Assembly (NCBI GenBank): GCA_951802425.1
Contig: OX637794.1
Span: 5,226,333-5,290,332 of the forward strand
DNA from: Clavaria fumosa
Lineage: Eukaryota; Basidiomycota; Agaricomycetes; Agaricales; Clavariaceae
Reading direction: 5' to 3'
Length of the DNA stretch: 64,000 bases
Below, one piece after another: positions 1 to 48,192 of the stretch. The notes below the pieces were generated by a model. It was given only the letters and a program-made list of their open reading frames with translations. It was not told the origin of the DNA and made no database searches. The translations under genes and the position numbers were made by a program. Numbering within the stretch: the first letter of the stretch is position 1; each line of letters starts with the position of its first letter.

Positions 1-1939
1 TGAGCAACAAGGCCATGAACATCTCTATGCACACCCACATCATCCCACATCCCTTGTTCTCCTGTCCAAAATTCCATTATCTGTATTGTATTTATGCTGG
101 ACTGGAAAATTCTCACCTGGATGTTGCCTGTCATGGTCACCTTCTAACCCATTCCCCTCAATACCATCACCCCTTCGCATATCCACCTGCTTGCTCAGAC
201 AGGATTCTTCTGCATCACTATCAGGGGGAACAGAAGCCTCAACCCTATCATCATTATCCCCATCATAGATGCACCCCGAATCACTGTCTGACTCATCTGA
301 GCCAATGTCTTCACTATGTGCATTTCAAATGTGCATTGATGATGATGATGATGATGATAATGATGATATGAGAACACTCACTCAGTACTGATATGGACAG
401 GCTGGACCTCTCGTTCTTTCCCCTTCTTGAGGGAGAGCCTCTTCACCTCTTTGTCAGATGACAATGATGGCTCTTGTTCAGGTTGCTGGTGATAGTTGAC
501 TAGATGCCTTGATGGCTTCCCTCTCTGGTGCTGTGGGAGAACATATTGAAACCGTAATATTTTCTGGCCCAAAGTCTGTCGGTGATGCAGGAAATCACAG
601 AGCCTTCTGACATCGACATATTGCATTTTTGAAGGCTCGCGAATTTGCATTCCCTCTGGAAGGTATTCATGAGGAATAAACTTGTGTGGAGCATCAGCTA
701 TCAGTTGCCAAGGGACAGCAACCTTCTTGTTTTTTGTTGTATTGCCTACATGTTGGAAGTAACTTGTCAGACTTGGACTATTGAGCAAGACAGACTCACG
801 ATAAGTGATAGTAAAAAATGACCGCAAAATTTCTTTGAGTTGTGCGAGTGGTAGGTTGAGTTCCAAAGGAAGAATGGGCCATCCCTCATGATCTGTTAGC
901 AAATCCCATGGCACACTAATATCTCTTCCTTTCCTTGATAGCATCTCCTCTTCATCAACAAAAGGCTTCCTTTGTAACTCATCTGAAATCCTGTCAGTAC
1001 TTCCCCAACCTTGGCTTCACATCATTTTCTCACCATTCCATGTCTCAGCCAAATATTTATCCCACTCCTCCCACACCTCACAACCAACTTTGTGAAATTG
1101 TACCTTGAACCCACTAGTCACAGGTCCAGGGGTCTGAATCCTGGAGCATGTATACAGAGAATTAATCTGATGGACCAGTGGGCATGCAATTGAGACTCAC
1201 TTTGCCTTCTTTATATTCCCTTTCTCATCTTGCCAGCCAGTCAACATAAATAATTCAACACCCATCTGCTCCTTTGCAAAACGGGCAAACTTCAGGGCCT
1301 CATGCATAAATTTGCGAGAAGCCAATCTCCAAGCAACATTTCAGCCATTCTACTGGTTGAGAAAGGTAAATTAAAATACTCACTCTCTCTGCACAGGAAC
1401 TGGGACAGGCTCCCTATTCCATTTCTCCACCAACCCCATGTATTTCTGATGCTCCTCTTGTGTTAGCTCTTGACAAATCTCAGTCCTAGCACGACGATAT
1501 GAGCTGAGGAACTGGACTGATCCCCTCTCAGCATTTGACAACTCCTGGGCCCTGGCATTGATAATCCCCTTCTTGCACTGCTCCACAACACGCTGGAGGG
1601 TCCACCTCTGTCGTTTGCTGAACTGAAGGCCTTGGTTGCCATCATCTTCTGAACCAGAAGACTCCTCCCCTCCACTGACAGCCCTGCGGTTATTGTGGAG
1701 CCAATTGCGAATTTTCTATGAACAGACAAACATCAAATCAACTCAGGAGACACATAAAATGCATAGGTTACGGTGCTAAGATCCTCTGGGACACATTTGT
1801 TGTCCTGCTCAGCTGAATCCTTGATTTTCGCTTTGATTTGCTTGACAATTTCGAGGCGGTCTTTTGAGTTTGCCTGTCTGTAGGCTACAAGACTTTCTGT
1901 GAGTATTTTGGTATACTCTGGGGTCGTCCACCGTGTCAT
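1..1939 (-). CDS. Arm gene, left copy (unknown transposon-associated protein; C-terminus outside window)
   Basis: This is the mirror copy of the gene at 21301-23408 and keeps the same exon structure; its last exon runs off the left edge. The protein starts MTRWTTPEYTKIL and has an intron after the codons for LST (near 1772). It continues with K-I-R-N-W-L-H-N-N-R-R, a long charged helical region, and the segment starting MLSRKGRDIS at 944. The only coding difference seen is Glu in this copy against Asp in the right copy near the end of the exon at 378-944. An ATC/GAT microsatellite lies in the intron near 340-370. I do not recognise a catalytic domain. Both copies are open, so either could be expressed. 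Confidence 0.6.
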
Positions 1940-2032
1940 TTTCTTTGCTGCCTAACTGATAAAGCAGTGGTGTTGTTGGGAAGCAAGAGGTGGTGTGTCA
2001 CGTGAGAAAATAACTTGGCTCACGTGAGTCAC

Positions 2033-2180
2033 TTGTCACGCGTTGTGACTGTGACTTGCTGAGGCTGTGCCCGGGACCCCGGGTGTGACAGTTACACTGT
2101 GACCGTAACTCTCCATAACAATATGCAAAATGTCCTTTGAATATGTGAGCCTTGTGTATTTTTTTAATGTACGAAATTCC
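2033..2180 (-). repeat. Element-end-like motif with CCCGGG palindrome (copy 1)
   Basis: Read on the minus strand this holds a GGTCACAGTGT-type block, GTCACACCCGGG, a second CCCGGG half and CACAGCC, then GTCACAGTCAC. Related copies occur at 2620-2775 (minus), 21060-21207 (plus, the arm partner), 23885-24010 (plus) and, weakly, 16515-16570 (plus). All strong copies on the left point one way and those on the right the other. It may be a transposon terminus or subterminal region; which side is outer cannot be decided here. Confidence 0.5.
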
Positions 2181-2271
2181 ACAGCAGTCACATCTTACAG
2201 CCAGAGTGATGACGAAGGTTCGGCTAATGGTCTATCTGAAAGAGGACTAGTACGTTTAGTTTAAACTCCTA

Positions 2272-3292: not shown

Positions 3293-4772
3293 ATGAGTCA
3301 CCCTGATAAGAAAGGGCGTCATGTGGTCATGGTCCTCCATGTCAATCTGGTTCGACCTTTGAAACCCCAATTAGCACAGTTTTGGGGCAAGACTAAAGGT
3401 ATGTACTTTTGAAAGCTTGCTCCATGTCTGTCTGAGAGGATCTAGGATGGGTACTGTTTCCAAAACTATTTCTCCTTTTTGACCAAGAATCAAGTCTCTG
3501 GAGTCAACAAACATATGAAGCGTTTGTTCAATCTGTCAAGCCTAACTTTCCGGGAGACACATGGCAATATCTTAGGTATGTGGCTTGTTTTGAAAGCTAA
3601 ATTTCAACATTAATGATTGGCAATATCATAAGACCTGAGGAATCCGAAGCTGCATGGGTATCTGGTGGGACAACATCAGGGTAGATCAATAACCTCATGT
3701 AATCAATATATTTGACATATTTTTCTCATTGTAGTGTTGGGAGCACACATATGCTTCTAGGTCCAGTTCAATTGAAAGATATTGAACTTGACCAACTCAA
3801 GGCTGGTCAATGGATAGGGGGAGATATTGTCAACTTTGCACTTCAGTACGTCAACCAATGTTCAATTGTTAACAATGCTCAAGGTGGACAGAGAGACATA
3901 CAAAGCATTGGAAACAGGGGCATCTGGAATATGGCTCGCAAATACATATTTCCTTCCAGTACTGAGGTAATTTCACCCCTTAATGATGTGGGTGAAAGCT
4001 GATCATTTATTAGAAGAAAGGATGGCACCAGAGATATTATCGCATGGCTTCCAGAATCTGCACACAAATGCAGATACTGGATTATTCCTGGGTTCAGTGA
4101 GGAACTGTACGTGGCTGATATCTTGTTGGAATTTATGGGGATGCTATACCTATTACAGGAAGCATTGGTTTACCATAATTGTGGCAAACCCAGGCCATTG
4201 CTTTCTAGTCGATCAGCCAGATGGTAACTGGGGATGGTGAGTGTACCATTTCTTGCAATATTTTTGGTACTAACATCTTTACAGTACCATTGTCATACTT
4301 GACAGCTTTTTTCGTGACAGGGTGCATTCCAAAGACGCAAAGGCAATCCAAGACCTCTTCCGAGAGCTTGGGCATCAACAGGGCCTAAAGTACACCAAGG
4401 ACCCAAAGGTTATCCAACCAAAGGTTTGTGGCAAATTGTGCAAAAAAGGGTGCTTCATATATTTTCATATGTTCTTGCTTAGGTTCCAAAACAGAAAAAC
4501 GGAGATGATTGTGGCATATATGCGATCCATTTTGCAAGGCTGTGGTTGCATGAAGGTGACAGATTAATGGATGTGGTGCTGGTAATTGGATATTTCTTTT
4601 CTTCTTCTAATGTCATTTCAACATCCCTTAGAACCCCTTGATGTCTCAACAAGACATTGAACAAGCATGGAAGTGCTGGAGGATTGGTGGGCTTCGGACA
4701 AGGCTACAAGAAGAGATCCTCACCGTTGCAGAGAAGAGTTGGTTTGAGCATGAAAAACAAAGGATAGTCTGA
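3293..4772 (+). CDS. Ulp1-like (C48) SUMO/ubiquitin-like protease
   Basis: Multi-exon gene. Ulp1 proteases cut SUMO precursors or remove SUMO from conjugates. The C48 triad is visible across exons: His in EELKHWFTIIV, formed by splicing the 4109-4158 region; Asp in CTIVILDSFF after the intron ending at 4287; Cys in KQKNGDDCGIYAIHF near 4490-4530. Upstream is the substrate-side WIGGDIVNFAL segment (about 3808). The last exon ends RIV and TGA at 4770. The 5' end is uncertain: an ATG at 3293 opens MSHPDKKGRHVVMVLHV, while an ATG at 3020 could start an earlier exon. It lies 0.2 kb upstream of the KDZ transposase on the same strand. Ulp1 domains are known companions of some eukaryotic DNA transposons, so I read it as element cargo or part of the transposition machinery. 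Confidence 0.75.
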
Positions 4773-4983: not shown

Positions 4984-7900
4984 ATGCCAATCACTAAACG
5001 AAAAGAACATGCCCAGGAGGTTGAATTTGTTTCAATTTACAATAAATGACTGCGGAAATCCTTTTTGAAGTCTCGAAATGTCTACAAACAACCTGCTCAA
5101 CCATACAACGTTCTACATAGCAAGCTTTGGTCTGGGACCTGCTCCAATGATTCCCTACTCCCCCAAACACCCCATAGCGAGGCCAAACAGACTCTGCCCT
5201 TTACATTTAATGCAGATGGTGACCCTGAGTGCATACTGGATTCTGATGCCCAAAGGATTTCACATAAGAAAAAGCAAGGAAAGGTGAGGACTCCAAGTTG
5301 TTCTCTGTATGCTGAAGTATCTGAAAATGTACACATTCAGACTCAGAATGAATTCCTTGAGGATTGGCTTCCTTTAAGAACAGCTTACCTGAGGGAAATC
5401 TTGGAATTAGAAGCTCCACCCCCTTCCAAAATTTGTCAGGTCTGCAATCAGAACAACTTCAAGTTTCGATGCCGTGATTGTTTCTATCGGCCTGCAACTT
5501 GCTCCTCATGCTGCGCCAAATCTCACATCAATATCCCATTCCATTCCATTGACGTTTGGAATGGAGTTTGTTTCCTGCCATCTGATCTCCTACATGTTGG
5601 ACTGGCGATTCACTTAGGGCATCAAGGCTCACCGTGTCCAGAATTCAAAGAGGAAGGGTACAGGGAGAAGGATCAATGGGAGCAAGATACCAGAAATGAA
5701 CCTAATTTGGATAGGCCAGGTGCAAGTCTGCTTCTAGTTGTACACTCAAATGGAGTGTGCCGACGGAGCATCTATTACTGCCAATGCTCAAATGCTCCTT
5801 CCCACCATATACAGCTGCTTCAACACCGTCTGTTTCCTGCCAGCTATACGAAACCTCAAACAGTGTTCACATTTGAAGTCCTTGGTCACTTCCATATTGA
5901 GGCTATGGAGTGTAAAACCTCAGCAGGCGCCTTTTACTCCAAACTAAAGAGATTTACCTCTAATGCTTTCCCAGACACTGTACCAGTTAGTATCCTCCTC
6001 TCCTTTTCCCTCCATTTGTATTGACAAGCTGCTGGCATTAGGATCGATACCGTGAACTAATGAGAGTATCTCGTCAATGGCGAGACTTGACAAATAGAAA
6101 ACGATTTGGTTTTGGGCACGACTTGGATAGGAAAACAGGAAATGGGGACCTAGCACTGTTTTGTCCTGCTTGCCCTCAACCTGGCATTAATCTTCCTAAC
6201 AACTGGCAAAGTCAACCAGATCAGTAAGTCTTGTTTTCATTGAATGCATGTGAACCCTGATAAAGAAATGCCAGATGGCTTTTCCGCAGATCCCTGGTTG
6301 TTGATGGAAATTTCTCAGCAGAACACTTGAAAATGCGAAGAGCAGAGAAAGATGTTAGGTTAGCAAATGGAGAGGCATATATTGTAGAGGAGGTGAATTA
6401 TCAACATCACCTCTCTGAGGGCTTAGAGATTCGAGATGTAGGTGTCTAACTTGGACTGGTCACCTGAGATTCACTCCTACAACAGAAATCAAAATGCTCA
6501 AATCACAGGGCTATAAGCCAGTCAAATGCTCACTCAAGTCACCTGGAAGCCACAGGAATAGGGGCATGTGCCTGCTCACGGCATGGGTGTTTCGTGCCAC
6601 ATTCTGTGGTTGATTTCCAGAAGGGCGAGCGGTGAGCTGAAAATGTCTGTATATTTTAATTTGGTTGCAAATACTTGTTGCTTTTTCTTCCAGTCACATC
6701 AACATTGACTATGCAATTTGCCAAGCTATCAAATATAGGACAGAAGGGATGACAGAGACTTTAGTCATCTATGATATCTGTTGTCAGTGGATTCGCAATT
6801 TCGACAAGAGGGTCCAGGGGAGCCAGTATCTGTCTGTGCACCCTTCAACAACAATCATACCTGCAGTGGGTAAATTTCACTTGGGGGCACACATTCGTTC
6901 CTGTTTCCCACTGTTCTCCTTGAACTTTGTTCATGGTGCTGGCCAACAAGATGGAGAGATTTTGGAGACTCTGTGGTCAAACCTGAACAAGGTCTCCAGC
7001 AGCATACGGGCCATGAGCAAGGCACATCGGCACGAAATATTAGACGACTACATGCGAGATTCAAACTGGAAGAAAACAGTGGGTATTGGTGGGTATCAAA
7101 ATTTTCTAAGCGAATTTGGGATAACTGAATATGCAATCTAGTGAAGGCCCTCCTGGCGAAGTACAATGCTGCAACAGAAGGTCTTCGACAAACCAAGATT
7201 GCATTCAATGATTTGAATGAAGGGATTGGATCAGAAGCAAGAGAAGAATGGATGAATTTAGAGCAGATTGCTCTGCAAAATCGAGGGGAAGCCCTCAAAA
7301 TATACGATATACAACTGGAAAAGAGTGAGTTGATATTCCTCACTTCATCACTAGAGACAGAAATCTGAAAATTTCAATATGAAGCACCAACTCTTGCAGA
7401 TATCAGGCTAACTCTCTCAGCTAGGGAAAAAGAAACTGGAGTACCTTCAGGGATTACATCATTCCTGACTCAAGGCATGGATCTGGAACATATTCAGTAA
7501 GTGACATCCAAGATGCTAAGCCTACACACATGCCAATGAGCCTCCAGATGTTCAATTGACCTAACCCGGAAGAGGAGACTCACAGCAGCTCAGAAGCAAA
7601 GCATTATTGATAAACAGAATGCACTTCAATCCAAAATTGAAAATTTCAACCAACGAGTCTATACTGTTCTGGGAGATTTCGAGTGGGATGACCAACACCA
7701 GGAGACCATGCCAGAAGACACTGGACCTAGAGAAGAAACACAGGATGATCCTCAAGATGGTGACGTGGAAGACCTGGACATGGACGAGCAGAATTTCATA
7801 CAGAACAGGCTTTGGATGCCTTCTACGTTTGGCCACGACTTCTGCTTGAAAAATGGGTGGGAAAAATTTGTGGATCAAGAAATACAGCTGCGGGTGGTAC

Positions 7901-8695: not shown

Positions 8696-9871
8696 CTAGG
8701 TCAACAATTGCATGTACGTATTTTGAGTTGGGTAAGTTGGTCGTGGTATCTGTAGACGGTCATGAACAGAATCTTTCATGAAATGAGCAATGCACAATCG
8801 TTCGCCACCCTCCCAATCCATCACTTCATGCAGAAAAACTTTACCCGCAAATACAAGGACAGTTCCAGGATTGTAGGCAAATTGACCACCAAGTTCCTGG
8901 AGTGTCATGTATGCCTGCTTGTGAGTTCCAGCACTAACCAAAAGATCGTAGTGAGCCAGGCAGCCTCCCTTGTCGCGATGTGCAGGAGTCTTCCTGTTCA
9001 CGATGACTTCCATTGCCGTAAAGATTGAGGGCCAAAGCTGCACATTCTTGTATGTTTTTGCCATTGCCACCCCAGATTGCACTTGGTCAATGGCTGAGCT
9101 CCCAAAGTCATATTGTTCTGGTGCGACCAAGGCCATAATTGAATTGCACAGCTTCTCTGCATGTGCGATTCCTCGAATGAAGGAGGAACCATATGCAGTC
9201 TGCAAGCTGGTCGAAGCATGCAGTTTATCACTGAGCTGTTGACATTGAGACAGTAAAACAAGGTAGTTATGTGACAGCATTACCTGTTGCTGGCCTTGCA
9301 TAAACCAGCCAGGAGAGAAGGACTTGATTCCGGCACCAAAACGACCTCCGCCTTCAGGTTCGACAAATCCCGTAGTACGCCCAGCATTACTTGGCAAGTC
9401 TCTGTCCAGATGCTTGCTAATGTGCTCACACCCTCTGTTGTACTGCTCCTGTAAATTGGTTAGAAAATATGGTTCAAATTTGATTGCCTTATCTCACCAC
9501 TCTAGCACTAGAAAGAATTCCAGGCAGAGCCCACAGCAAGATACGACCGTGCTTATCAATTATTGTGCAGGGTTCCTCTTGAACACCGAGGTCTTGAGGC
9601 TGCTTGAAATACTTGCTGAATTTCACCAAGGCTGCATCGAAATTATTGCTGCGTTTGGCTATGAGATTGATATGTTTCACACTGTCTGCAAACCGATCTA
9701 TGTCCCATTCCGTTTGAACTGAATGGTCAAAGTGTTCAGCTGATTGTTGCAAGTCATTTAAGCTAACGCACTTGGGTTGAAGAGGGCATAGGCCACAGTT
9801 AGAACTACACGTTGTAGTTCTTCTTGAGTCACAGGTTGGTCGTCAGCATTACTCTCGTTGCTGGAATCCAT
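8696..9871 (-). CDS. TET/JBP-family 2-oxoglutarate/Fe(II) dioxygenase (5-methylcytosine oxidase type)
   Basis: Expected reaction: oxidation of 5-methylcytosine (or thymine in JBP) using 2-oxoglutarate and Fe(II). The ATG at 9871 opens MDSSNESNADDQPVTQEEL; introns lie at about 9733-9765 and 9449-9497, with a possible third of 48 nt (VMLSHN region). The catalytic domain shows NRKTPAHRDKGG (HxD iron ligands), YDLLVSAG, GGQFAYNPGTVLVFAGKV, FLHEVMDWEGGER (distal His and the Arg expected to bind 2-oxoglutarate) and LCIAHFMKDSVHDR. All key residues are present and no stop interrupts the frame. The family is known to be expanded in agaricomycetes and linked to KDZ transposons (Iyer and colleagues), and here it lies tail-to-tail with a KDZ gene, 110 bp apart. 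Substrate and activity are inferred. Confidence 0.88.
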
Positions 9872-11361: not shown

Positions 11362-12939
11362 CTACTGTTGATTTATAATTAGCCAGCGCCCTCCAAAAAT
11401 TTCGCCTCCCAGCCAAACTTTCTCCTCAGGTGCATTGAAGATAAGTTTGTTGGTGCACTGCGGATTTCGACAAGCAAATATTCTCGCCCCAGCATTACCA
11501 GTAGATGAGACCCAGGAGCGGATGCAGCCACAAGCCTTGCACTGCACTGGGAGCTGATTTCCCCAAGGGCGAAGCTCAGGGTGAACCCACATATAACGAG
11601 CACCACGTATTTGTCCCTCTCTTGCCTGGAGATGGACGATGTCGGTGTGGCGACAAATTGCTGATGTCGCAGGTAGGAGCCTCCGGAGACAGTCCTCCAG
11701 AGGGAATCCCTCCACCAGAACTTGCTGGGCATAGCCAACTACAAACCCTGCCGTAAGGCAAGGTTGCAGCTCAGCGGCTGTGAATGTGATGACATCCGAA
11801 ATCAAAAGGCTGGAAATTTTGATTAATTAGCAAATTGAGAGTGCTAGTTATTGTCTTACTGCTTGGTTGCCTCTGCTAGCTCTGAATAACTACGGAAGTT
11901 CTTGACTAATGTTCCACAGGACATCATCCACAATGTGACCTCTGCCCCTTTGAGGAATGTCAAGTGGGCAGGTGGGAGGAGGACGTTGAGAAACTAAGGC
12001 TTCAAATTAGCTGGAGGCAGATGCATTGTAAACAAACTCATGGGTTTGACCTGGGTGCATAACCCAGGTGAAAGAAAGAGGTTGCCAGTGTCATCATGAG
12101 AATGATTCGTAATAAAAATTACGACACGGGGATGTTTATTTCTGTGAAAATGGTTAGTACAATATGATATGAAACAGAAAGCTCATACTGAATCTTATGC
12201 ACCAAGCTCTTCATGTACTCTGCGTGCAAATTGATAAGGATGTCATTGGCAAGATCGAACACAACCTCTTCATACTGCAACGCCTCATCTCCAAGATACG
12301 ACCGCATATAGTCGGCGAGAAGTCTTGCCGGCGTTCCAGCATGATCCATTCCTTTGAGGAGAAAGTGCAAGACAAGTAGTCCCTTGTTGCTGACACGAGA
12401 ATTTGCAGTCATTTGAAAATTGCCTACTACCTTGAGAGGTTGTGCAAACGCTGGTCGCAATCTTGCCGTGTCGGGCTTCCCGTCGATGATGTCAAGGCCC
12501 TTTGTCAAATAGAACCCCTACAATGCAAAGATAAGAGAACGAAACAGAATAAGTAAATCAATGCTCACATAATATGGGCTGAGGGTGGGTCCTTTGAAAG
12601 ACCGAGCATGGCAGGTGAGACACATGAACTTGAGGTGTTCGGTGTCGATCGAAGTCGGGACAGTGAGGCATTTTGTGCATAGCGCCCGAGCACAGTAATC
12701 AAAGACAAAAAGAAAACCACCATTAAGGCACATGTAGCAGAACTGTGGAAAAAGTTTATTGTTTTGTACCAGTGCTCAGAGCAAAGGCGAATACTCACAT
12801 TTTCACCCTCACTAGCAAATTCTGGTCTAACCAGCACTGTAGAAGTAGCTGTCGTTCTTGTGGATACAGCTGACCCTGGGACAATGCGGAGAGCGCGACC
12901 GCCGGTACTTCTCTGTGCTGTTTGTTTGTTTCGAGCCAT
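11362..12939 (-). CDS. H3-tail-mimic protein: histone H3-like N-terminus, PHD-like finger, caspase/CHAT-like segment, zinc ribbon
   Basis: Six exons join in frame to 438 aa: 12939-12799, 12742-12569, 12517-12189, 12141-12051, 11993-11860, 11809-11362. Residues 1-16 are MARNKQTAQRSTGGRA, 12 of 16 identical to the canonical histone H3 N-terminus, but no histone fold follows. Residues 48-93 form a PHD-like Cys finger (CYMCLNGG..CARALCTKCL..CLTCH). Residues 218-236 (PRVVIFITNHSHDDTGNLF) and 264-272 (VTLWMMSCG) look like the strand-His and strand-Cys motifs of a caspase/CHAT fold. Residues 380-408 carry CKACGC..C..C, a zinc ribbon. I think related uncharacterised proteins exist in other agaricomycetes. 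Proposed role: chromatin-targeted protease or decoy; function is inference. The frame is intact and lies beside TET/JBP and JmjC genes. Confidence 0.78.
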
Positions 12940-13766: not shown

Positions 13767-13784
13767 TTAGGGTTAGGGTTAGGG
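13767..13784 (+). repeat. Interstitial telomere-like (TTAGGG)3
   Basis: Three perfect TTAGGG units stand in an internal position between GC-rich repeat and AT-rich sequence. Confidence 0.9.
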
Positions 13785-16648: not shown

Positions 16649-19600
16649 ATGTCTACTTCGATGAACAAATCCTCTTCCTCGACAAGCAAAATGTCGACTT
16701 CAGCATTGCTCACCATCTTCGATCCCCAAACAGTCCGCACGAGTGCTGTTTTCCAAAACTATCCTTGGTTGACCGACATCATCATGAAGCCTGGACTTCT
16801 GGAAAGCAACATTGCTACTTGGCTGGGACAGCACCACAACTTAGGAGAGGAGCAAGTTTCCCTCTGCAAGGTTCAATTCAAACTTATAAACTTAGGATTA
16901 TTTGCTTATCAAAGCTAATCGTCTAGTCGATCGCTCAGTCTTTGGATCGTTTTGGACCTGGAAGCACGGCACTGAAGAAGGAAAGAGCAGTCAACGAATA
17001 CTTCCGGGCATCATACAGTGACTTGGTTAGCAGAGAGAAATGGGAGAAACACGACACATCAGCTCTCATGAGCGCTGCTCATTTCGTTTTTCGTCATGCC
17101 CTTTTGGACCGCTTGGCATTTTCGATTGTTGAGGCTTCTCCATCCCAGCTAACGCCTCGATCTGAATTGCCTAAGATGCCCAAGAAGTTTAGCGATGTGC
17201 GTTAAATTTCTTTCCCTTATTCCAAGTTTCTTATCTTTCATAGTATATTGGTACCATTAAGGATTGGCTCAAGCCCATTGAAAAAGCACAGGGGTCTCAA
17301 AGCTTTCAAGCCATGGATCCATTGACGAATTCTGCGGCGTATTTTGGCACCTCCCTTCCTGCACACCCTTCGCCAAAGCAGGAACAACTGATCAAAGCTG
17401 TAAAGTTCCTTGGTGGGGGCCTGGAACGAATGCGAGACATCCAGGTCAAGTCCGTACTTCTAAACTTTGAGATGATGGCATTTGCCATCACTTGGTTTGG
17501 CTTGGTTTGTGTCCAGCAATTTTTTTGTTGGGAATTATAACTAACAATCTCTCAGAATAATGCCACAGGTTTTGCTGAGTCGACCCAGGACTGGGTCAAT
17601 ATTTTAAATGAGTGAGAGCAACATAGTTTGCCTTATCCAAATTTCCAACTAAGTTTTTTCACACAGACAATTAGAAAGCGAGGGTCTTCCTCTGTCTTCC
17701 AGCCTTGTCTCAAGGCTCACAGATCCACGTCTTGGCCCGATGCTCTTCGAGCATGTGCGCGGACTCTTCCACTACTGCCTCTCTGTCAGTCCCCTTTTTG
17801 CCCTGACAACAAGGGCATTTGACCAGTCGCAACTGCGACAAAGTTTCTTGGTATCGGTGAGTGCCTCATTTTTATGTCAGATTGTGTTTACGAAACAGGC
17901 AATATAGACTGCAATGTACTTGGGTAACGAAAAGCCTGCGTTTTTGGGATTGACGGAGAAAGCACTGTGGAGAGCTCTGATGCAAACAAGCATCACCGGC
18001 GACTCATCAGTGGCCCTGAATGGCTTCCTTACAGAGTTTCAAGACCTTCAGGTGCAGTTCAAGGGGCCAGAAATTCAGATGGATTGGTATTCTCCATCCC
18101 GTATGTTATTTTGATCTTTTCGTCCCTGAATGAAACTGACTGCAAAGAAAGGGCAAGTCCAACGTGTCATCACAGCTCCCGAACCATGTTCCATCGAAGA
18201 AGAAGCAGAGCCCATCATTGCTCCTGAAGCTGGTCCCCCGGAGCATGTCGAAGACATCATTCCTGCTCTGGAAGCAGATCCCCAGGGCGTCACTTCTGCT
18301 CATGAAGCAGGTCTGATTGAGCAAACACCAATTTTCCCCATGCTCGAATACGACCAGCAGGAGCTCTCAGACACTCAAGATGCTGAAGAAGCTGAAGGTG
18401 CATTGGAGAAGCCACTGAAACACGAGGTTCATCGTCCAACGCGAAGGGCAGCAAAGAGACTCCGGCATGAATCAGACCAGGAGAATAAGGATGACGAGTT
18501 GATCCCCGATGAGGAAGCTGTGACGAGGAAAGGGAAAGGAAAGGCGACACAGGATACACATGTGGGCCAAGGCAAGACAAAGCCACCTGGACCCATCCAC
18601 CAGGGTAGAAAGGCTGCCTTGAAGCCAATTCGGAGTATCATTGACCTGACGGTCAAGGTATGACTTATATTGACACCCCAACAAATGCTGATTGAATTGT
18701 TTTATTTAGCACGTAGAGAAAGTGGAGGAGCTCTCCTCTTTACCCCTCCCCAAGGTAAGCAAAATCTCAACTACTGCGTAATATTTTAATTCACACAATG
18801 CAGATGGAGAATCACTCCATCAAAGTCAAAATGTATGATGCAAATCCTGATACCGAGCCAACCGTCTATGAGCATTTCACAACTTCAGATTCAGTATGTT
18901 TAACACTTTTTTTCATGGATATCTCTCAAAATAAAGCAGGCATTCCGCGAGTATCCTGTCCTAACGGACATAATAGAAATGGTCGAAGAGGAATATGTCA
19001 ATCAGGTCCCTAAGCATCGTCTTCCAACTGCCAGGTCGCGAACATTCCATCCAGATGCGTCTGCGATATTCGTCACAACCTGGACTGAGTTCATGAAGAT
19101 GACTAGTCTGGAAATTCAAGAGGTGTTCCGTCGTCGACATATTCTTATTACGAATACGCCAATTTCAACCCTCGACTTTGATGAGGAGGGATTATCGACA
19201 TTGGCTCCTCTACATCAGGAATGTGTGTTCCAAGGTGAGTCTAAAATATTTTTCAAGTTGATTCATCTAAGTCAGCTTCTATAGTTGCAGAGATGCGAAA
19301 GCACTCTGATGCAAATCTGCTCCGCACTGGGACACTCCACGATTTGCTGGAGTCAACACGTGATATTACAAAACGACGGATTTTGAATGGCCTTGACTTC
19401 CCGATGGGAAGCCTCAGCCTCCCTCCACCACCTCGATTCAGGCATGTCCCATTTGTTGCTCTGACACATGACAACTGAAACAATAACTAAATCAGCGCTT
19501 TTGCAACTCATGAGTGGGCACGCCACCAAACCCAAAAGATGGATGGCTTCGCAAACCAACCTGACAAAGACAACCTGATCTGGGGCATTGCAGCCACTGG

Positions 19601-20907
19601 TGGGACCATCAGCATGCCCCATATTGATGATGTTGGCCTTGCAGTTGTTTCGACTGTCATGTCAGGGTCAAAGTGGTGGGTGGTGATGCGCCGCCGTACA
19701 GACGCAGAAGACTACGACTATCGCGGCAATATCTTTTCGACGCATGCCTTCCCCCTCAGTTGGGGTGATTGTAGCACCGGAAAAGAATTTTTATGTGCGG
19801 AGGCTATACACCTGAAGACAGGAGATATTTTGTGAGTTGCAATAATTATCACGTGCAATATTTACTGACAATCCTACAGTTTCATGCGTCCTGGCACACT
19901 CCATTTTGTGCTTGGCCCAGAGCCGACGATTGTTTACGGCCGGCACTTTTATTCCGCATCCACGATAGCTCGCAGCTGTGCTTCAGCCCTGCATACGTTT
20001 GTGCTCAACCCGATAATCACCAATCAAGAGCACCAATCGACGACCACATACTTGTGCAAGATGATGGCGGTCTGGGTTGAGCACTATGTCACGGGGAAAT
20101 CCAAATATGGTAGAATCTCTCCATCATTATGTATGTCATCTGATAATTGTTTTAGCATTTGGTGAGGCACTTGCCCACATCCCCGATGTCACAACAAGAC
20201 ATGGACTCCTCGATATTATCATGGTGGGGAACATGCTTGAATTTGCGATAGCCCTTGGCCTCAAGTCACATGGGAGGAAACCACTGCCTGAAATACTTGA
20301 AGAGCAAAACGTTGCGATGTGGCGATACCGCATCTTCCAGAGCTGGTTCATCGAACGATACATTCTTGAGATTGGTGGTCAAGGGGTGAACCCATCATAT
20401 CTCTTCTACAAATTGCTCATCCAGTTTGGCGCGGCACTTTGTTCTTACATGAAAAGGTGGGAGAAAAAGGCACCACTCACAATCACTGCACAGCAGGTGA
20501 TTGCAGCAGTGCTTGAGCACCTTCGGAAAGACTGGCAAGACCTTCTGGATGCCTTCCAGAAGTTGCTCCATGACGATACCAGTGCTGGTAATTGGTTCTC
20601 CTGGGATGGCCCTGACTTCCACATATTTCCCCGCGACAATACTCAGGTTTGGACGGAGCTGGAAGATTTGCTGGATGATCCAATTTATGAACAGGTCTCT
20701 GAAGAAGAGCAAGAGGACAGTGATGCAGGAGATGACCGTTCTGAGTTGGGGACAATACGTTCTAAGAGGCCCCTCTCCCCACATGATGGTATGTGTTTCA
20801 TTATATACTTTCATCTAGACGCAGCAGATTTTCTAATCAATACAACAGATAATTCAGACATGGAATGGATGGTCCGTGTGAGACAGAGGCGCGGTTTCAA
20901 TGCCTGA
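16649..20907 (+). CDS. Large JmjC-domain protein (putative histone demethylase-like)
   Basis: At least 12 exons; I verified the first joins: 16649-16870, 16939-17196, 17244-17504, 17556-17611, 17667 onward. The N-terminal region (MSTSMNKSSSSTSK..) is helical. A central acidic, Pro/Glu-rich linker (18130-18660) carries basic patches such as RRAAKRLRHE and KGKGKATQ. The JmjC core is at 19539-20060: GGTISMPHIDDVG (HxD iron ligands, His codon at 19620), SKWWVVMRRR, then after an intron FMRPGTLHFVLG (second His at 19902) and YGRHFYS. A long helical C-terminus ends in a Glu/Asp-rich tail at 20907. JmjC enzymes demethylate lysines with Fe(II) and 2-oxoglutarate; the target is unknown. The frame is open throughout. 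It ends 130 bp before the right inverted arm. Confidence 0.8.
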
Positions 20908-21035: not shown

Positions 21036-23239
21036 ATGGCTGTGAGATGTGACTGCTGTGGAATTTCGTACATTAAAAAAATACACAAGGCTCACATACT
21101 CAAAGGACATTTTGCATATTGTTATGGAGAGTTACGGTCACAGTGTAACTGTCACACCCGGGGTCCCGGGCACAGCCTCAGCAAGTCACAGTCACAACGC
21201 GTGACAAGTGACTCACGTGAGCCAAGTTATTTTCTCACGTGACACACCACCTCTTGCTTCCCAACAACACCACTGCTTTATCAGTTAGGCAGCAAAGAAA
21301 ATGACACGGTGGACGACCCCAGAGTATACCAAAATACTCACAGAAAGTCTTGTAGCCTACAGACAGGCAAACTCAAAAGACCGCCTCGAAATTGTCAAGC
21401 AAATCAAAGCGAAAATCAAGGATTCAGCTGAGCAGGACAACAAATGTGTCCCAGAGGATCTTAGCACCGTAACCTATGCATTTTATGTGTCTCCTGAGTT
21501 GATTTGATGTTTGTCTGTTCATAGAAAATTCGCAATTGGCTCCACAATAACCGCAGGGCTGTCAGTGGAGGGGAGGAGTCTTCTGGTTCAGAAGATGATG
21601 GCAACCAAGGCCTTCAGTTCAGCAAACGACAGAGGTGGACCCTCCAGCGTGTTGTGGAGCAGTGCAAGAAGGGGATTATCAATGCCAGGGCCCAGGAGTT
21701 GTCAAATGCTGAGAGGGGATCAGTCCAGTTCCTCAGCTCATATCGTCGTGCTAGGACTGAGATTTGTCAAGAGCTAACACAAGAGGAGCATCAGAAATAC
21801 ATGGGGTTGGTGGAGAAATGGAATAGGGAGCCTGTCCCAGTTCCTGTGCAGAGAGAGTGAGTATTTTAATTTACCTTTCTCAACCAGTAGAATGGCTGAA
21901 ATGTTGCTTGGAGATTGGCTTCTCGCAAATTTATGCATGAGGCCCTGAAGTTTGCCCGTTTTGCAAAGGAGCAGATGGGTGTTGAATTATTTATGTTGAC
22001 TGGCTGGCAAGATGAGAAAGGGAATATAAAGAAGGCAAAGTGAGTCTCAATTGCATGCCCACTGGTCCATCAGATTAATTCTCTGTATACATGCTCCAGG
22101 ATTCAGACCCCTGGACCTGTGACTAGTGGGTTCAAGGTACAATTTCACAAAGTTGGTTGTGAGGTGTGGGAGGAGTGGGATAAATATTTGGCTGAGACAT
22201 GGAATGGTGAGAAAATGATGTGAAGCCAAGGTTGGGGAAGTACTGACAGGATTTCAGATGAGTTACAAAGGAAGCCTTTTGTTGATGAAGAGGAGATGCT
22301 ATCAAGGAAAGGAAGAGATATTAGTGTGCCATGGGATTTGCTAACAGATCATGAGGGATGGCCCATTCTTCCTTTGGAACTCAACCTACCACTCGCACAA
22401 CTCAAAGAAATTTTGCGGTCATTTTTTACTATCACTTATCGTGAGTCTGTCTTGCTCAATAGTCCAAGTCTGACAAGTTACTTCCAACATGTAGGCAATA
22501 CAACAAAAAACAAGAAGGTTGCTGTCCCTTGGCAACTGATAGCTGATGCTCCACACAAGTTTATTCCTCATGAATACCTTCCAGAGGGAATGCAAATTCG
22601 CGAGCCTTCAAAAATGCAATATGTCGATGTCAGAAGGCTCTGTGATTTCCTGCATCACCGACAGACTTTGGGCCAGAAAATATTACGGTTTCAATATGTT
22701 CTCCCACAGCACCAGAGAGGGAAGCCATCAAGGCATCTAGTCAACTATCACCAGCAACCTGAACAAGAGCCATCATTGTCATCTGACAAAGAGGTGAAGA
22801 GGCTCTCCCTCAAGAAGGGGAAAGAACGAGATGTCCAGCCTGTCCATATCAGTACTGAGTGAGTGTTCTCATATCATCATTATCATCATCATCATCATCA
22901 TCAATGCACATTTGAAATGCACATAGTGAAGACATTGGCTCAGATGAGTCAGACAGTGATTCGGGGTGCATCTATGATGGGGATAATGATGATAGGGTTG
23001 AGGCTTCTGTTCCCCCTGATAGTGATGCAGAAGAATCCTGTCTGAGCAAGCAGGTGGATATGCGAAGGGGTGATGGTATTGAGGGGAATGGGTTAGAAGG
23101 TGACCATGACAGGCAACATCCAGGTGAGAATTTTCCAGTCCAGCATAAATACAATACAGATAATGGAATTTTGGACAGGAGAACAAGGGATGTGGGATGA
23201 TGTGGGTGTGCATAGAGATGTTCATGGCCTTGTTGCTCA
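21036..23239. repeat. Right arm of the long inverted repeat
   Basis: Reverse complement of 1-2204; the two inner ends are about 18.8 kb apart. See the left arm for the differences seen. Sequence beyond 23239 has its partner outside the window, so the arm may be longer. Confidence 0.95.
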
Positions 23240-23408
23240 TATGGCAGTTCAGATCCACAAGGAGGCAGGGCCCAGCCTGCCCAAGAGGAAAAGGGTATAC
23301 CATGATGAAGAGGAGGAGGAGAGGTCTAAGCAATATAGGACCAGGGCTAGAGAGAGGGCTTCCATGGATGCCAAGAAGCGGGTACTGCGACCAAGGGTGA
23401 AGCACTGA
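21301..23408 (+). CDS. Arm gene, right copy (unknown transposon-associated protein, ~568 aa)
   Basis: Eight exons join in frame: 21301-21468, 21525-21856, 21914-22039, 22100-22206, 22258-22440, 22495-22858, 22927-23123, 23179-23408. The protein opens MTRWTTPEYTKIL, then KIRNWLHNNRR, a Trp-centred basic stretch that recalls a DNA-binding helix. QRWTLQRVVEQCKKG and a long helical region follow, then GCEVWEEWDKYLAE, VPWDLL..GWPILP and PSKMQYVDVRRLCDFL, an acidic Ser/Asp region, and a basic tail (KKRVLRPRVKH). No catalytic motif is recognised. The gene starts about 100 bp inside the CCCGGG element-end motif, suggesting it belongs to a mobile element of its own. Its counterpart is the left arm gene. 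Confidence 0.65.
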
Positions 23409-24700
23409 AAATCATCCTTGACACTGGTGACAGTCATTTGTAGTGCATATCAATCTGCATGATGTCTCACTAGGTCCTAATAATTCTTTGCAATCTGTCC
23501 TTTTGTGGTGCCTATAGTTTGGCCCTTTCTAAGGAATTTCAGATAATGATCCACTTCCTGAATCAGTCAGCTTTGCATTACATCATTGAAGAACCTGTGC
23601 CTATCAGAAAGCATATTTGAGTCTTGTTATTAGATGCATCATGCTGTTCAGAAGATTCATACCTTTATAAGCAATATCTGATAATAATATCCTCCTTCAT
23701 TATTCCCACTAGATTGTTGAAGGTGGAGTGTGCCCCATTGAACCACATATGTGGGTCCTTTTATAATGGTTTGTCTCTTTATAAGGAATATCAGATTATA
23801 TACTGCTTTGCATCACTTCCTCAATTTAATTCTAGACCACAATGGATCATTTTTATGTACAAAGGCTCATCCTGAACAATTCTAATACATTCTCCTCTTC
23901 TTTAGAACACATATTCAAAGTGGATTTGAATACTCTTATGCAGAGTTGGTCACAGTGTGACTGTCACACCCGGGATTCCGGGCACAGCCACAGAATGATA
24001 TAATCACAAGGTGTGATAACAGACTCACATGCACAACTTCTACATTGCAAGAATATTTGAACAATAACAATACATTCTACATTGCAAGAATATTTGAACA
24101 ATAACAATACATTCTCCTTTAGAACACGTATTCAAAGTGGATTTGAATACTCTTCAGAAAGGATATTAAGGCCCATCCTTTTCCAAAGAATATCCTGACT
24201 CAGTTGACAACCACATTTCACTCTAGTTTATAATGGCTCCATTGCATATTCGATTGGTACATTTGCTTCTACCCTTTGAAGACCTATTGGAAGGCATATT
24301 TGTTTTCATCGCACCCAACTATGTTAAGTTGTCATGGAGGAGTCTCAGATGATAAGGAGTCTCAAATGATGCAGATGACCTTGTAATTTACATATCTATC
24401 AAATAGCACATCTGATCTTTGCTTCCTAATCTTGTGCATATGCTTTATCCCCAGCTTTTTGATCTAATTTGTCATGTAAGTGAGAGAAATGTTTGAATAG
24501 GGTGCTTCAGACCCTCTACACTGGTTCCTAAAATGGGTGTCGGCCAGCCCTTTTGAAAGGGTATCATCATTACCATGGGATCCCTGTATGCCTGGCAGGA
24601 TTTTGGTATATCAAGTTGATCGGCCAAGCCTATAAAGCTATATCTCGGCCGACGATCGGCTGGGCCCATAAAAAGGGCATCAGTCAAAATCGGCTAGGCC
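23409..24700. other. AT-rich intergenic stretch with element-end motif and short duplications
   Basis: No gene supported. It holds the motif at 23885-24010, a 35-bp tandem duplication (ACATTGCAAGAATATTTGAA units near 24041 and 24076), and a direct repeat (AACACATATTCAAAGTGG at about 23906 and AACACGTATTCAAAGTGG at about 24124) bracketing the CCCGGG motif. Confidence 0.6.
23885..24155 (+). repeat. Element-end-like motif (copy 4) bracketed by direct repeats
   Basis: Plus-strand GGTCACAGTGTGACTGTC, then ACACCCGGGATTCCGGGCAC. The direct repeats beginning AGAACAC on either side resemble a solo end or small insertion. Confidence 0.5.
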
Positions 24701-24713
24701 TTTTGGATAGGGG

Positions 24714-25367
24714 GTGGGTGTGCTGAAGGGGGTGACTGCGCCTGATAGCAATTCTGCTATGTCAGGAACTTTGAACTCCACCACATGGGACTGGGCAAAC
24801 CTACCCAAGGAGCCTTTGCCACCTTTTCCCACTGTTGTTGCTGCTGATAAAACTTTACCCAACATGAATTTACACAGAACAGGGTCACAGGAAAATTCTG
24901 CTGCCCCATTGCCCAAACCAGCACCTATCGATATTCGAATTTTGGATCCCGCCCACTTCACCAACCATCTAGTGGGTGAGGATATAATTCTTCATGCTGT
25001 TTATCATTTTTTCCCTGCACCTGAAGACTCGCTCCAAGCTAATGCCGCACTAATCAATTCTGAACCCCCAGAAGCAAGGGCGAACCTACCACCTCAATAC
25101 GCAGACTTTACCAATGTCTTCTCCGAGGAAGAGGCCTGCACCCTTCCACCCCACCGAACTTACAATCATGTGATACAACTCGAACCAGACACCAAAGACC
25201 CTTGGGGTCTGCTGTATAACATGTCTGAGCTGGAATTAAAGGTTTTGCATGACTATATTGACGACATGCTCCAGAAGGGATTTATCCACCCTTCTGAATC
25301 CCCCACAGGAGCCCCTGTTGTAGTTGCAAAAAAGAAGGACAGTTCACTCTGTCTTTGTGTTGACTAA
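24714..25367 (+). pseudogene. Ty3/gypsy Pol fragment (start of reverse transcriptase)
   Basis: The frame contains LPPQYADFTNVFSEEEACTL, LPPHRTYNHVIQLEP, the linker before RT, and SELELKVLHDYIDDMLQKGF plus GAPVVVAKKKDSSL, the first RT motif. It stops right after CLCVD, so the catalytic YxDD region is missing. Clearly a truncated retrotransposon; no matching gag or LTR was found beside it. Confidence 0.8.
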
Positions 25368-46742: not shown

Positions 46743-48192
46743 CTACGGACAAGTCATCTCAAATTCATCCCAAAGGGATTGATGAGTGAACCAAACGATG
46801 GAGACTCTCTGCCCACCTTCCCAGGCTTCAACTTCGTGGGGGAGTATATGACCTCGTAAGAGTACGATAGTCCCGGGTTCGTAACTTAACCTAAGGTTCA
46901 GCCTAGGTATAGCCAGATGACCTTTCCGAAATTCGCCCAACGTGAGCAACGGGACCCAGGCTCTCACTGGATCGGAGCGGTCGGCATGTAGCGCCGTTTG
47001 GCGGTTCCACATAATGGCTCGCCCCTCCATCAGAGACGGATCGATGGAGTCAATTGCTCTCGCGAATGGGTATTTTCGATGCACTGCTTCCCTTAGCTGG
47101 GCTAACGCCAAATATTGGGTGGGGTCCAGGCGTTCGATGATGCCGTTTATCTGTGACGAAGTCACTGCAAAGGCTTCCTTCAGAGCCATCGCCCGGGAGA
47201 AACGTCGTCCAGTTTTCATCAGATCCGCAGAGGCAACAACAGGCTCACGCTGTGATAATGAAGTAGTAGATTGACAAATACGGAAAGGAGGTTCAGTTCC
47301 ACTTACTGTACGGCCAATGGCGTGCCAACCAGAGACCAGCTTGACGATTCCAGAGTGCTCGTTCACCTTTCGAATATATGTCGTCGGTCGGTCCCGACCG
47401 CATTTGTCTGCACCACCGCCGAAAGTGGGAGGGCATACTCTCGCAAATTCCTCAGTCGCTTGGTAGAGCGTCTCCTGATTGGGGAAAATGAGATGGTGGG
47501 TTGCGTTGTGAACAGTGTATGCGAAATGACTCACTCGTGCTTTAACCCCAAGACCACCTGGCAGATGGAGGAGGACTTCGACGCCATCTGAACTAACAGC
47601 TATCCTGGGATGATTATCCATCCACTCTCGACATGGCTCTGGATGACTGTCGTCTTGCATCGATCGAAAGTAGATGGAGGACAATGGGCTCCTGATTGCG
47701 GAAGAATAACTAAAAGAATCGAATACAGCTGGGCCTATCCTCAGCATCCTGTGTCTTCGGGACACAAAAGGCGATATTTACTCACTGGATTTTTGACGCG
47801 CACGATCAACAAGCTTAAACATAAGACGTCTTATACTTGTCTGCATCTTCCCTTGAATATACGAGGCACTGATATTCTTCTGCGTCAGGGACATTTTCTG
47901 ATGCTCTCGATTGAACAAATGCATACCTGCCACTCGCCGGGGTACGCTTTCTCTCGGGCTCCTTGACAATGTCGTCGTCTTGGTCGGTCAGAAAATCGTC
48001 GAATATGTCCTTATTCCCAAACAACCGAAGGCATTCGTCGTCCCAGTCCCAGTCATCTGACATGGTGCTACGATCCGTAGCATCATCGGTGGCTTCACCA
48101 TCTGGGCCTTCTGTTTTCCTACACAACTTGATTAGATCTATCAGAATTTTAAGAGAAAGTCCTTACAAAATCGTATCTAACAAACCAGACAT
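46743..48192 (-). CDS. Second TET/JBP-like 2-oxoglutarate/Fe(II) dioxygenase
   Basis: Starts MSGLLDTIL at 48192; an intron joins it to KTEGPDGEATDDATD and an Asp-rich stretch. A short exon, KNISASYIQGKMQTSIRRLM, precedes the main frame, which runs 47765-46743 with at least one intron near 47230-47310. Catalytic signatures: MWNRQTALHADRSDPVRAW (HxD), LLTLGEF, LSYEPGTIVLLRGHIL, LPHEVEAWEGGQR (distal His, Arg) and VSIVWFTHQSLWDEF, in the order expected for TET/JBP. It differs strongly from the copy at 8696-9871 and has no KDZ gene next to it. No inactivating change seen. Expected to act on modified cytosine in DNA; this is inference. Confidence 0.82.

Follow-up and report, generated by a model that had tools for sequence, protein, structure and literature searches.

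A predicted protein with a histone H3-like start and a putative H3-reader-type finger, carried by a TET/JBP-bearing KDZ transposon of Clavaria fumosa

The transposon and its H3-like gene

The stretch analysed here, called the window and taken at its full length throughout, comprises 64,000 nt of the Clavaria fumosa genome (GCA_951802425.1, OX637794.1, positions 5,226,333 to 5,290,332 of the forward strand). On its minus strand, from an ATG at 12939 to position 11362, lies a gene whose product begins with MARNKQTAQRSTGGRALRIVPG, resembling the tail of histone H3 (the H3-mimic gene). This gene belongs to a KDZ transposon: it is cargo of a 26,229-bp (26.2-kb) element, C1:5224838-5251066, in which Pfam identifies a KDZ transposase domain with a CxC cluster. 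The initial annotation of the gene had missed this setting, beside a TET/JBP gene. The features of the element are listed below in window coordinates.

1..2203, no strand: inner portion of the left terminal inverted repeat, whose outer end lies at C1:5224838, 1495 bases before the window
3751..4581, plus: exons resembling an Ulp1/C48 cysteine protease (Peptidase_C48 E=3.5e-12 with hand-joined exons; HW, LDSF and Q-x5-C motifs)
5050..6024, plus: CxC2 cysteine cluster of the KDZ transposase (PF18803, E=2e-27)
6641..7141, plus: KDZ transposase core (PF18758, E=1e-30)
8696..9493, minus: TET/JBP dioxygenase, open frame of 265 aa (PF12851, E=1.8e-18)
11362..11809, minus: H3-mimic gene, exon 6; remainder of the core and a Cys-rich, zinc-ribbon-like end
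11860..11993, minus: exon 5; conserved Cys motif WMMSCG
12042..12141, minus: exon 4; conserved His motif TNHSHDDTG, donor AT in the window copy
12189..12517, minus: exon 3; without known domain, the fold predicted for 12191-12517 from the single sequence being of low confidence and almost entirely helical
12569..12742, minus: exon 2; PHD/ADD-like zinc finger, in the window copy with Phe in place of one Cys
12799..12939, minus: exon 1; H3-like tail MARNKQTAQRSTGGRALR and variable linker
19491..20165, plus: JmjC-like exons (HID...H) in hand-joined frames (JmjC_2 E=0.0048, JmjC E=0.011, both under the cut-off)
21037..24734, no strand: right terminal inverted repeat, 3698 bases; the element ends ...GGGGGTG, followed by ACTGCGC

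The two terminal arms, of 3698 bases each, are 100% complementary. The element begins with CACCCCC and ends with GGGGGTG (CA..TG), and the 7-bp target duplication ACTGCGC is found on both sides. Its Tet_JBP domain scores 66.8 bits, above the Pfam cut-off of 34.9, and the genome as a whole contains 77 TET/JBP matches. Compared with proteins of the KDM7/KDM2A type, the JmjC-like exons reached E values of 0.3-0.8 only. Exon 1 has 23 matches in the 48.8-Mb genome, and several of the 20 copies taken with their flanks align with the window at 98-99%, the alignments covering all or the greater part of 10 kb.

Iyer 2014 reportedly described TET/JBP-bearing KDZ transposons of mushrooms. According to Kojima 2025 (PMC12730594), the TET-bearing Kyakuja elements of Laccaria have 7-bp duplications and CA..TG ends, two families are without terminal inverted repeats, and the function of the Kyakuja TET/JBP genes is described as lacking experimental validation. 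The Clavaria element shares with them a KDZ transposase combined with TET/JBP, 7-bp target duplications and CA..TG ends, whereas its 3.7-kb perfect inverted repeats set it apart from the Laccaria elements. Judged by its domains, duplication and ends, it is a Kyakuja-type variant, and we keep to this label because of the perfect inverted ends. The main text of PMC12730594 does not use the words caspase, PHD or zinc finger, and its four occurrences of "histone" concern other matters.

Several minor features accompany the element. An open frame of 212 aa lies inside both inverted ends (378-1016, minus; 22224-22862, plus) and is hence carried twice; its GTF2I-like match (E=0.0025) is under the cut-off. 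A short TTAGGG-type run at about 13767-13784 lies inside the element, a long way from the end of the contig, and the insertion site of the element resembles, by eye, a retrotransposon reading frame (24711-25367, plus). A second, distant TET/JBP match (46746-47162, minus, E=1.5e-12) has counterparts close to the ends of C4 and C11, and these perhaps represent a subtelomeric element family. The same terminal sequence is also found paired 8.8-10.4 kb apart (C10:64666-73486, C5:397880-407355, C4:4314730-4324374, C1:3227889-3237919 and C10:1906547-1916975); these pairs can be read as related elements of smaller size or as its non-autonomous derivatives.

Comparison across copies gives the H3-mimic gene six exons encoding 441 aa, arranged as an H3-like tail, a variable linker, an eight-Cys finger, a middle segment, a core bearing TNHSHDDTG and WMMSCG, and a Cys-rich end for which the best Pfam match, Zn_ribbon_IS1595 at E=0.1, is under the cut-off. 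An earlier model of the spliced protein had 438 aa; its H3-like start and later finger stand, and its length is corrected by the intron 4 donor, which is GT in 13 of 16 comparable copies and lies three codons downstream of the boundary required by that model (the boundary we infer to have been used). In the window copy and two others the donor site reads AT. The MAR codons are the predicted translation start: among the families defined below, B and D have an in-frame stop upstream of the start codon with no intervening Met, and in family A the sole upstream in-frame ATG before a stop sits within a TATATATG stretch. When the 438-aa model was searched against a protein database, 7994 candidates were scored and 0 reached E<=0.001, a result that concerns that collection and not other species at large.

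The copy in the window is probably a decayed member of its family, because it has lost a probable zinc-binding Cys (FVFDYC, where 12 of 13 gapless copies have FVCDYC) and its intron 4 donor has changed to AT. Five of the 13 gapless copies are open with canonical splice sites, and eight, the window's included, are damaged by a stop, a lost start or a changed splice site. When the window copy was compared with 19 others over aligned blocks of at least 1000 bases, transitions per site were 15 times as frequent in CpG context as at other C/G (1295/10410 vs 482/57955), an excess that suggests the footprint expected of methylated CpG. In the host genome, two loci match C5-methyltransferases and one matches SRA.

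H3-like starts across the genome

The H3-like start had been called too close to the H3 tail for chance, and a genome-wide scan agrees: the pattern MAR.[KR]Q[TS] occurs at 47 starts in the 48.8-Mb genome and at 0 in a reversed control, and MAR.[KR]QTA at 24 places and 0, respectively. Sorted by their letters, 45 of these starts form six families (A, the window's own, with 18; B, 5; C, 1; D, 3; E, 15; F, 3). The other two are canonical-like H3, namely the canonical gene at C3:2275108, read as MARTKQTARKSTGG|KAPRKQL, and C8:1131616, judged by its pattern. Family C is a degenerate fragment, family F is known from its pattern, and family E consists of 13 starts that are alike and two with Arg at position 4; together with the three of family F, these bring the starts in which Arg replaces Lys4 to 5/45. 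With six families bearing an H3-like start, mimicry of the H3 tail is borne out more strongly than a single locus could show.

The random expectation for the surroundings of these starts was taken from 20,000 positions spread over eight contigs. Of the 45 non-canonical starts, 42 have a match to a query of finger plus exon 3 no more than 1 kb away (random positions, 0.6%), and 33 lie within 20 kb of a TET/JBP match (random positions, 6%), the remaining 12 being farther away. The three starts without a nearby finger match are those of family D, in one copy of which the finger was read directly. As to whether homologues lack the tail, the six families keep their H3-like start, and in a single related family, of which one copy was read, the tail is missing and the protein starts MASRSQKRRLPTKEEL.

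The tails were read in five families: MARNKQTAQRSTGGRALR in A, MARTKQTPKKSTGGRALR in B, MARSKQTAKRSTGGQAVR in C, MARTKQTAKTSTGSPSVR in D and MARTKQSAKRSSGAPAMR in E. Common to all are Ala1, Arg2, Lys4, Gln5, Ser10, Gly12 and Arg17 (H3 numbering), and the Lys9 position is not kept (R, K, R, T, R). Met-Ala starts lose their Met, exposing Ala1 as in H3. Any two tails are identical at 11-14 of 18 residues, and each pair has 10-13 shared non-Met codons, 5-11 of them spelled differently; between A and B, the linker shows hardly any conservation. The same residues in differing codons, next to an unlike linker, point to selection on the tail, and its conservation across families is strongly supported by these comparisons. 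In a two-family profile of the whole protein the first 20-40 positions match histone H3 (E=0.019 and weaker). A Pfam search with the family's 441-aa spliced product, admitting matches as weak as E=10, found no histone domain, in keeping with the initial claim that the protein has no histone fold.

The tail could instead be a functionless leftover of a captured H3 exon, kept by chance, and such a capture is conceivable in so far as exon 1 of the host H3 gene encodes about the first 12-13 mature residues. Against this, families that are otherwise widely divergent retain these residues in different codons, and the likeness to H3 passes the H3 exon boundary, reaching Arg17. The sequences disfavour a simple capture of an exon of the host's H3 gene, and we regard a chance leftover as highly improbable.

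The finger and the C-terminal core

A profile built from the fingers of families A, B, C and D (that of family E, though read, was left out) gave 40 matches among PDB sequences at E<=0.1. By name, 39 of these are chromatin proteins known for PHD/ADD fingers, most of which are known as readers of H3 unmodified at Lys4; the remaining match is an anti-sigma factor. The best matches were CHD4 (E=2.3e-9), PHF21A (8.1e-6) and AIRE (2.4e-5), followed by SP140, CHD5, PHF12, TRIM66 and TRIM24. KDM5A is also among them, and its PHD1 is described as a reader of H3 unmodified at Lys4. In the two-family whole-protein profile the finger matches the ADD domain of ATRX (E=6.3e-5).

The likeness to H3K4me0-type PHD/ADD fingers such as those of CHD4, PHF21A, AIRE and ATRX extends to a GG-L--CD-C core, the Cys spacing and the sequence match. 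Unlike C4HC3 PHD fingers, the finger of families A and B has eight Cys, with Cys where C4HC3 has His; in family A this is the fifth ligand position, a position also occupied by Cys in ADD domains. In family D one Cys pair is CxC where other families have CxxC. The PHD-like finger that had been proposed is therefore supported by the four-family profile, although the best Pfam PHD score, 19.3 bits, is below the 24-bit cut-off. We consider the finger a probable relative of PHD/ADD fingers of the H3K4me0-reader type, and the protein would then probably hold both an H3-like tail and a putative H3 reader.

For the C-terminal core a caspase/CHAT-type His/Cys dyad had been suggested. Both motifs, NHSHDDTG and WMMSCG, are present in the window gene, and the alignment shows them kept in families A, B and D in spite of the distance of D. 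Their order, His then Cys, resembles by eye that of clan CD peptidases. Such a protease might clip H3-like tails, its own tail being a pseudosubstrate or a self-cleaved pro-segment. Comparisons with known peptidases speak against this: with a shallow three-family query, hhalign gave no significant match to CHAT alignments (107 sequences; 102 sequences) or to a metacaspase alignment (31 sequences). In the metacaspase alignment the Cys of WMMSCG fell on that of DSCHSG by chance (E=0.34), which was counted as no evidence. Pfam found no C14/CHAT peptidase match in the 441-aa protein. Folds predicted for single exons had mean pLDDT values of 34 (exon 6) and 51 (exon 3), and the exon 3 fold, of low confidence, was mainly helices rather than the expected strands, leaving this check uninformative for a caspase/CHAT fold. 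A caspase/CHAT-like core is therefore possible in view of the conserved motifs, with profile, Pfam and fold giving it no support, and we think it improbable that the protein is a tail-clipping protease. The initial annotation was right about the start, the finger and both motifs; its H3 mimicry and finger hold, its protein length is corrected, and its caspase/CHAT assignment is a possibility.

Possible roles of the tail and known parallels

The arrangement bears on the question of how transposons with TET/JBP locate copies of themselves that have been silenced and open them again. A protein that mimics the H3 tail, has an H3-reader-type finger as well and is encoded next to TET/JBP would connect the DNA side directly with the histone side, in a way open to experiment. 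Since Ala1, Arg2 and mostly Lys4 are kept, Lys9 is not, and a reader-type finger is present, recognition of the H3K4me0 type is indicated, whether by the protein's own finger, a partner or host readers. Because the gene adjoins TET/JBP, its simplest purpose would be to aid the element against silencing, and the combination of H3-like start, reader-type finger and neighbouring TET-type enzyme suggests a tool for escaping chromatin silencing. The imitator of the H3 end would here be a transposon, and not a virus, a bacterium or a host.

The reading we prefer, with confidence a little short of even, is that this transposon cargo gene produces an accessory protein that faces chromatin, acts against silencing and uses its tail to compete with genuine H3. 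In favour of it we count the transposon setting, the recurrence of the start close to finger and TET/JBP matches, the tail residues kept in differing codons, the kinship of the finger with PHD/ADD fingers and, as signs of silencing pressure, the CpG excess and the host's C5-methyltransferase and SRA matches. Once the initiator Met is removed, a free Ala1 end would imitate H3 residues 1-17. This tail could dock into an H3K4me0-type finger, most probably within the same protein or within a tail-less relative, and keep the reader closed until unmodified H3 tails of silenced, CpG-methylated chromatin compete it off. The freed protein might then hold or help the element's TET/JBP enzyme at the element's own silenced copies. 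Both the docking in cis and the help to TET/JBP are suggested by adjacency. Our confidence in an accessory is lowered because Arg4 replaces Lys4, the central residue there, in the 5/45 starts noted above; also against it are the tail-less family, the 12/45 starts far from TET/JBP, the CxC of the D finger, the Pfam PHD score below cut-off and the 8/13 damaged copies. More speculative is a wider proposal, which we hold as a minority view: in a lineage of DNA transposons, a soluble H3 tail may have arisen and been retained together with a reader for it in one protein. Such a switch would recognise itself, sense unmodified H3 where chromatin is silenced and form, with the TET/JBP, JmjC-like and Ulp1 enzymes of the transposon, a multi-part anti-silencing kit.

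Alternatively, the tail could act in trans as a decoy: host readers of the PHD type through which silencing is guided (SRA/UHRF1-like, CHD4-like, demethylase complexes) would bind it and be drawn away from chromatin, as UHRF1 is by mouse DPPA3. Readers of the H3K4me0 type contact Ala1, Arg2 and Lys4, all present in the read tails, and the host has the SRA and C5-methyltransferase matches described above; the varying Lys9 position makes decoying of HP1-type proteins less likely. Besides DPPA3, PAF15 is a cellular protein with an H3-like motif, which is likewise of the Arg2 type and imitates a few residues. According to PMC11187062, the VRT motif of DPPA3 binds the UHRF1 PHD finger (that of human DPPA3 only weakly), a precedent showing that H3-like motifs can act on the methylation machinery. 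The tail resembles DPPA3 in having an Arg2-type motif; in DPPA3 this motif takes part in the control of DNA methylation by binding a PHD finger that reads H3 (PMC11187062). In contrast to the few residues of DPPA3 and PAF15, it is an N-terminal ARTKQT-like tail extending to Arg17, is encoded on a transposon and shares its protein with a reader-type finger. For a pure decoy that finger would be superfluous, and we rate this role as less likely than not and behind the accessory that we prefer.

A transposon-encoded parallel is VANC of the Arabidopsis VANDAL transposons, which PMC10398659 and PMC5735166 describe as a sequence-specific anti-silencing factor; transposons can thus encode such factors. 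Like VANC, which counters silencing, the H3-mimic is transposon-encoded and putatively has the same effect; VANC differs in being described as sequence-specific, and the openings of both abstracts make no mention of histone imitation. Among the matches listed in a literature search there was no report of a transposon H3-tail mimic.

A further observation concerns the tail-less relative. One copy (L057, C1:3256790-3257040) and its family members have a CYMCLNG finger, and the copy lies 6.4 kb from a tailed gene of family E. Judged by position, the same neighbourhood recurs elsewhere in the genome, and the tail-less relative and the tailed E gene are possibly a two-subunit pair.
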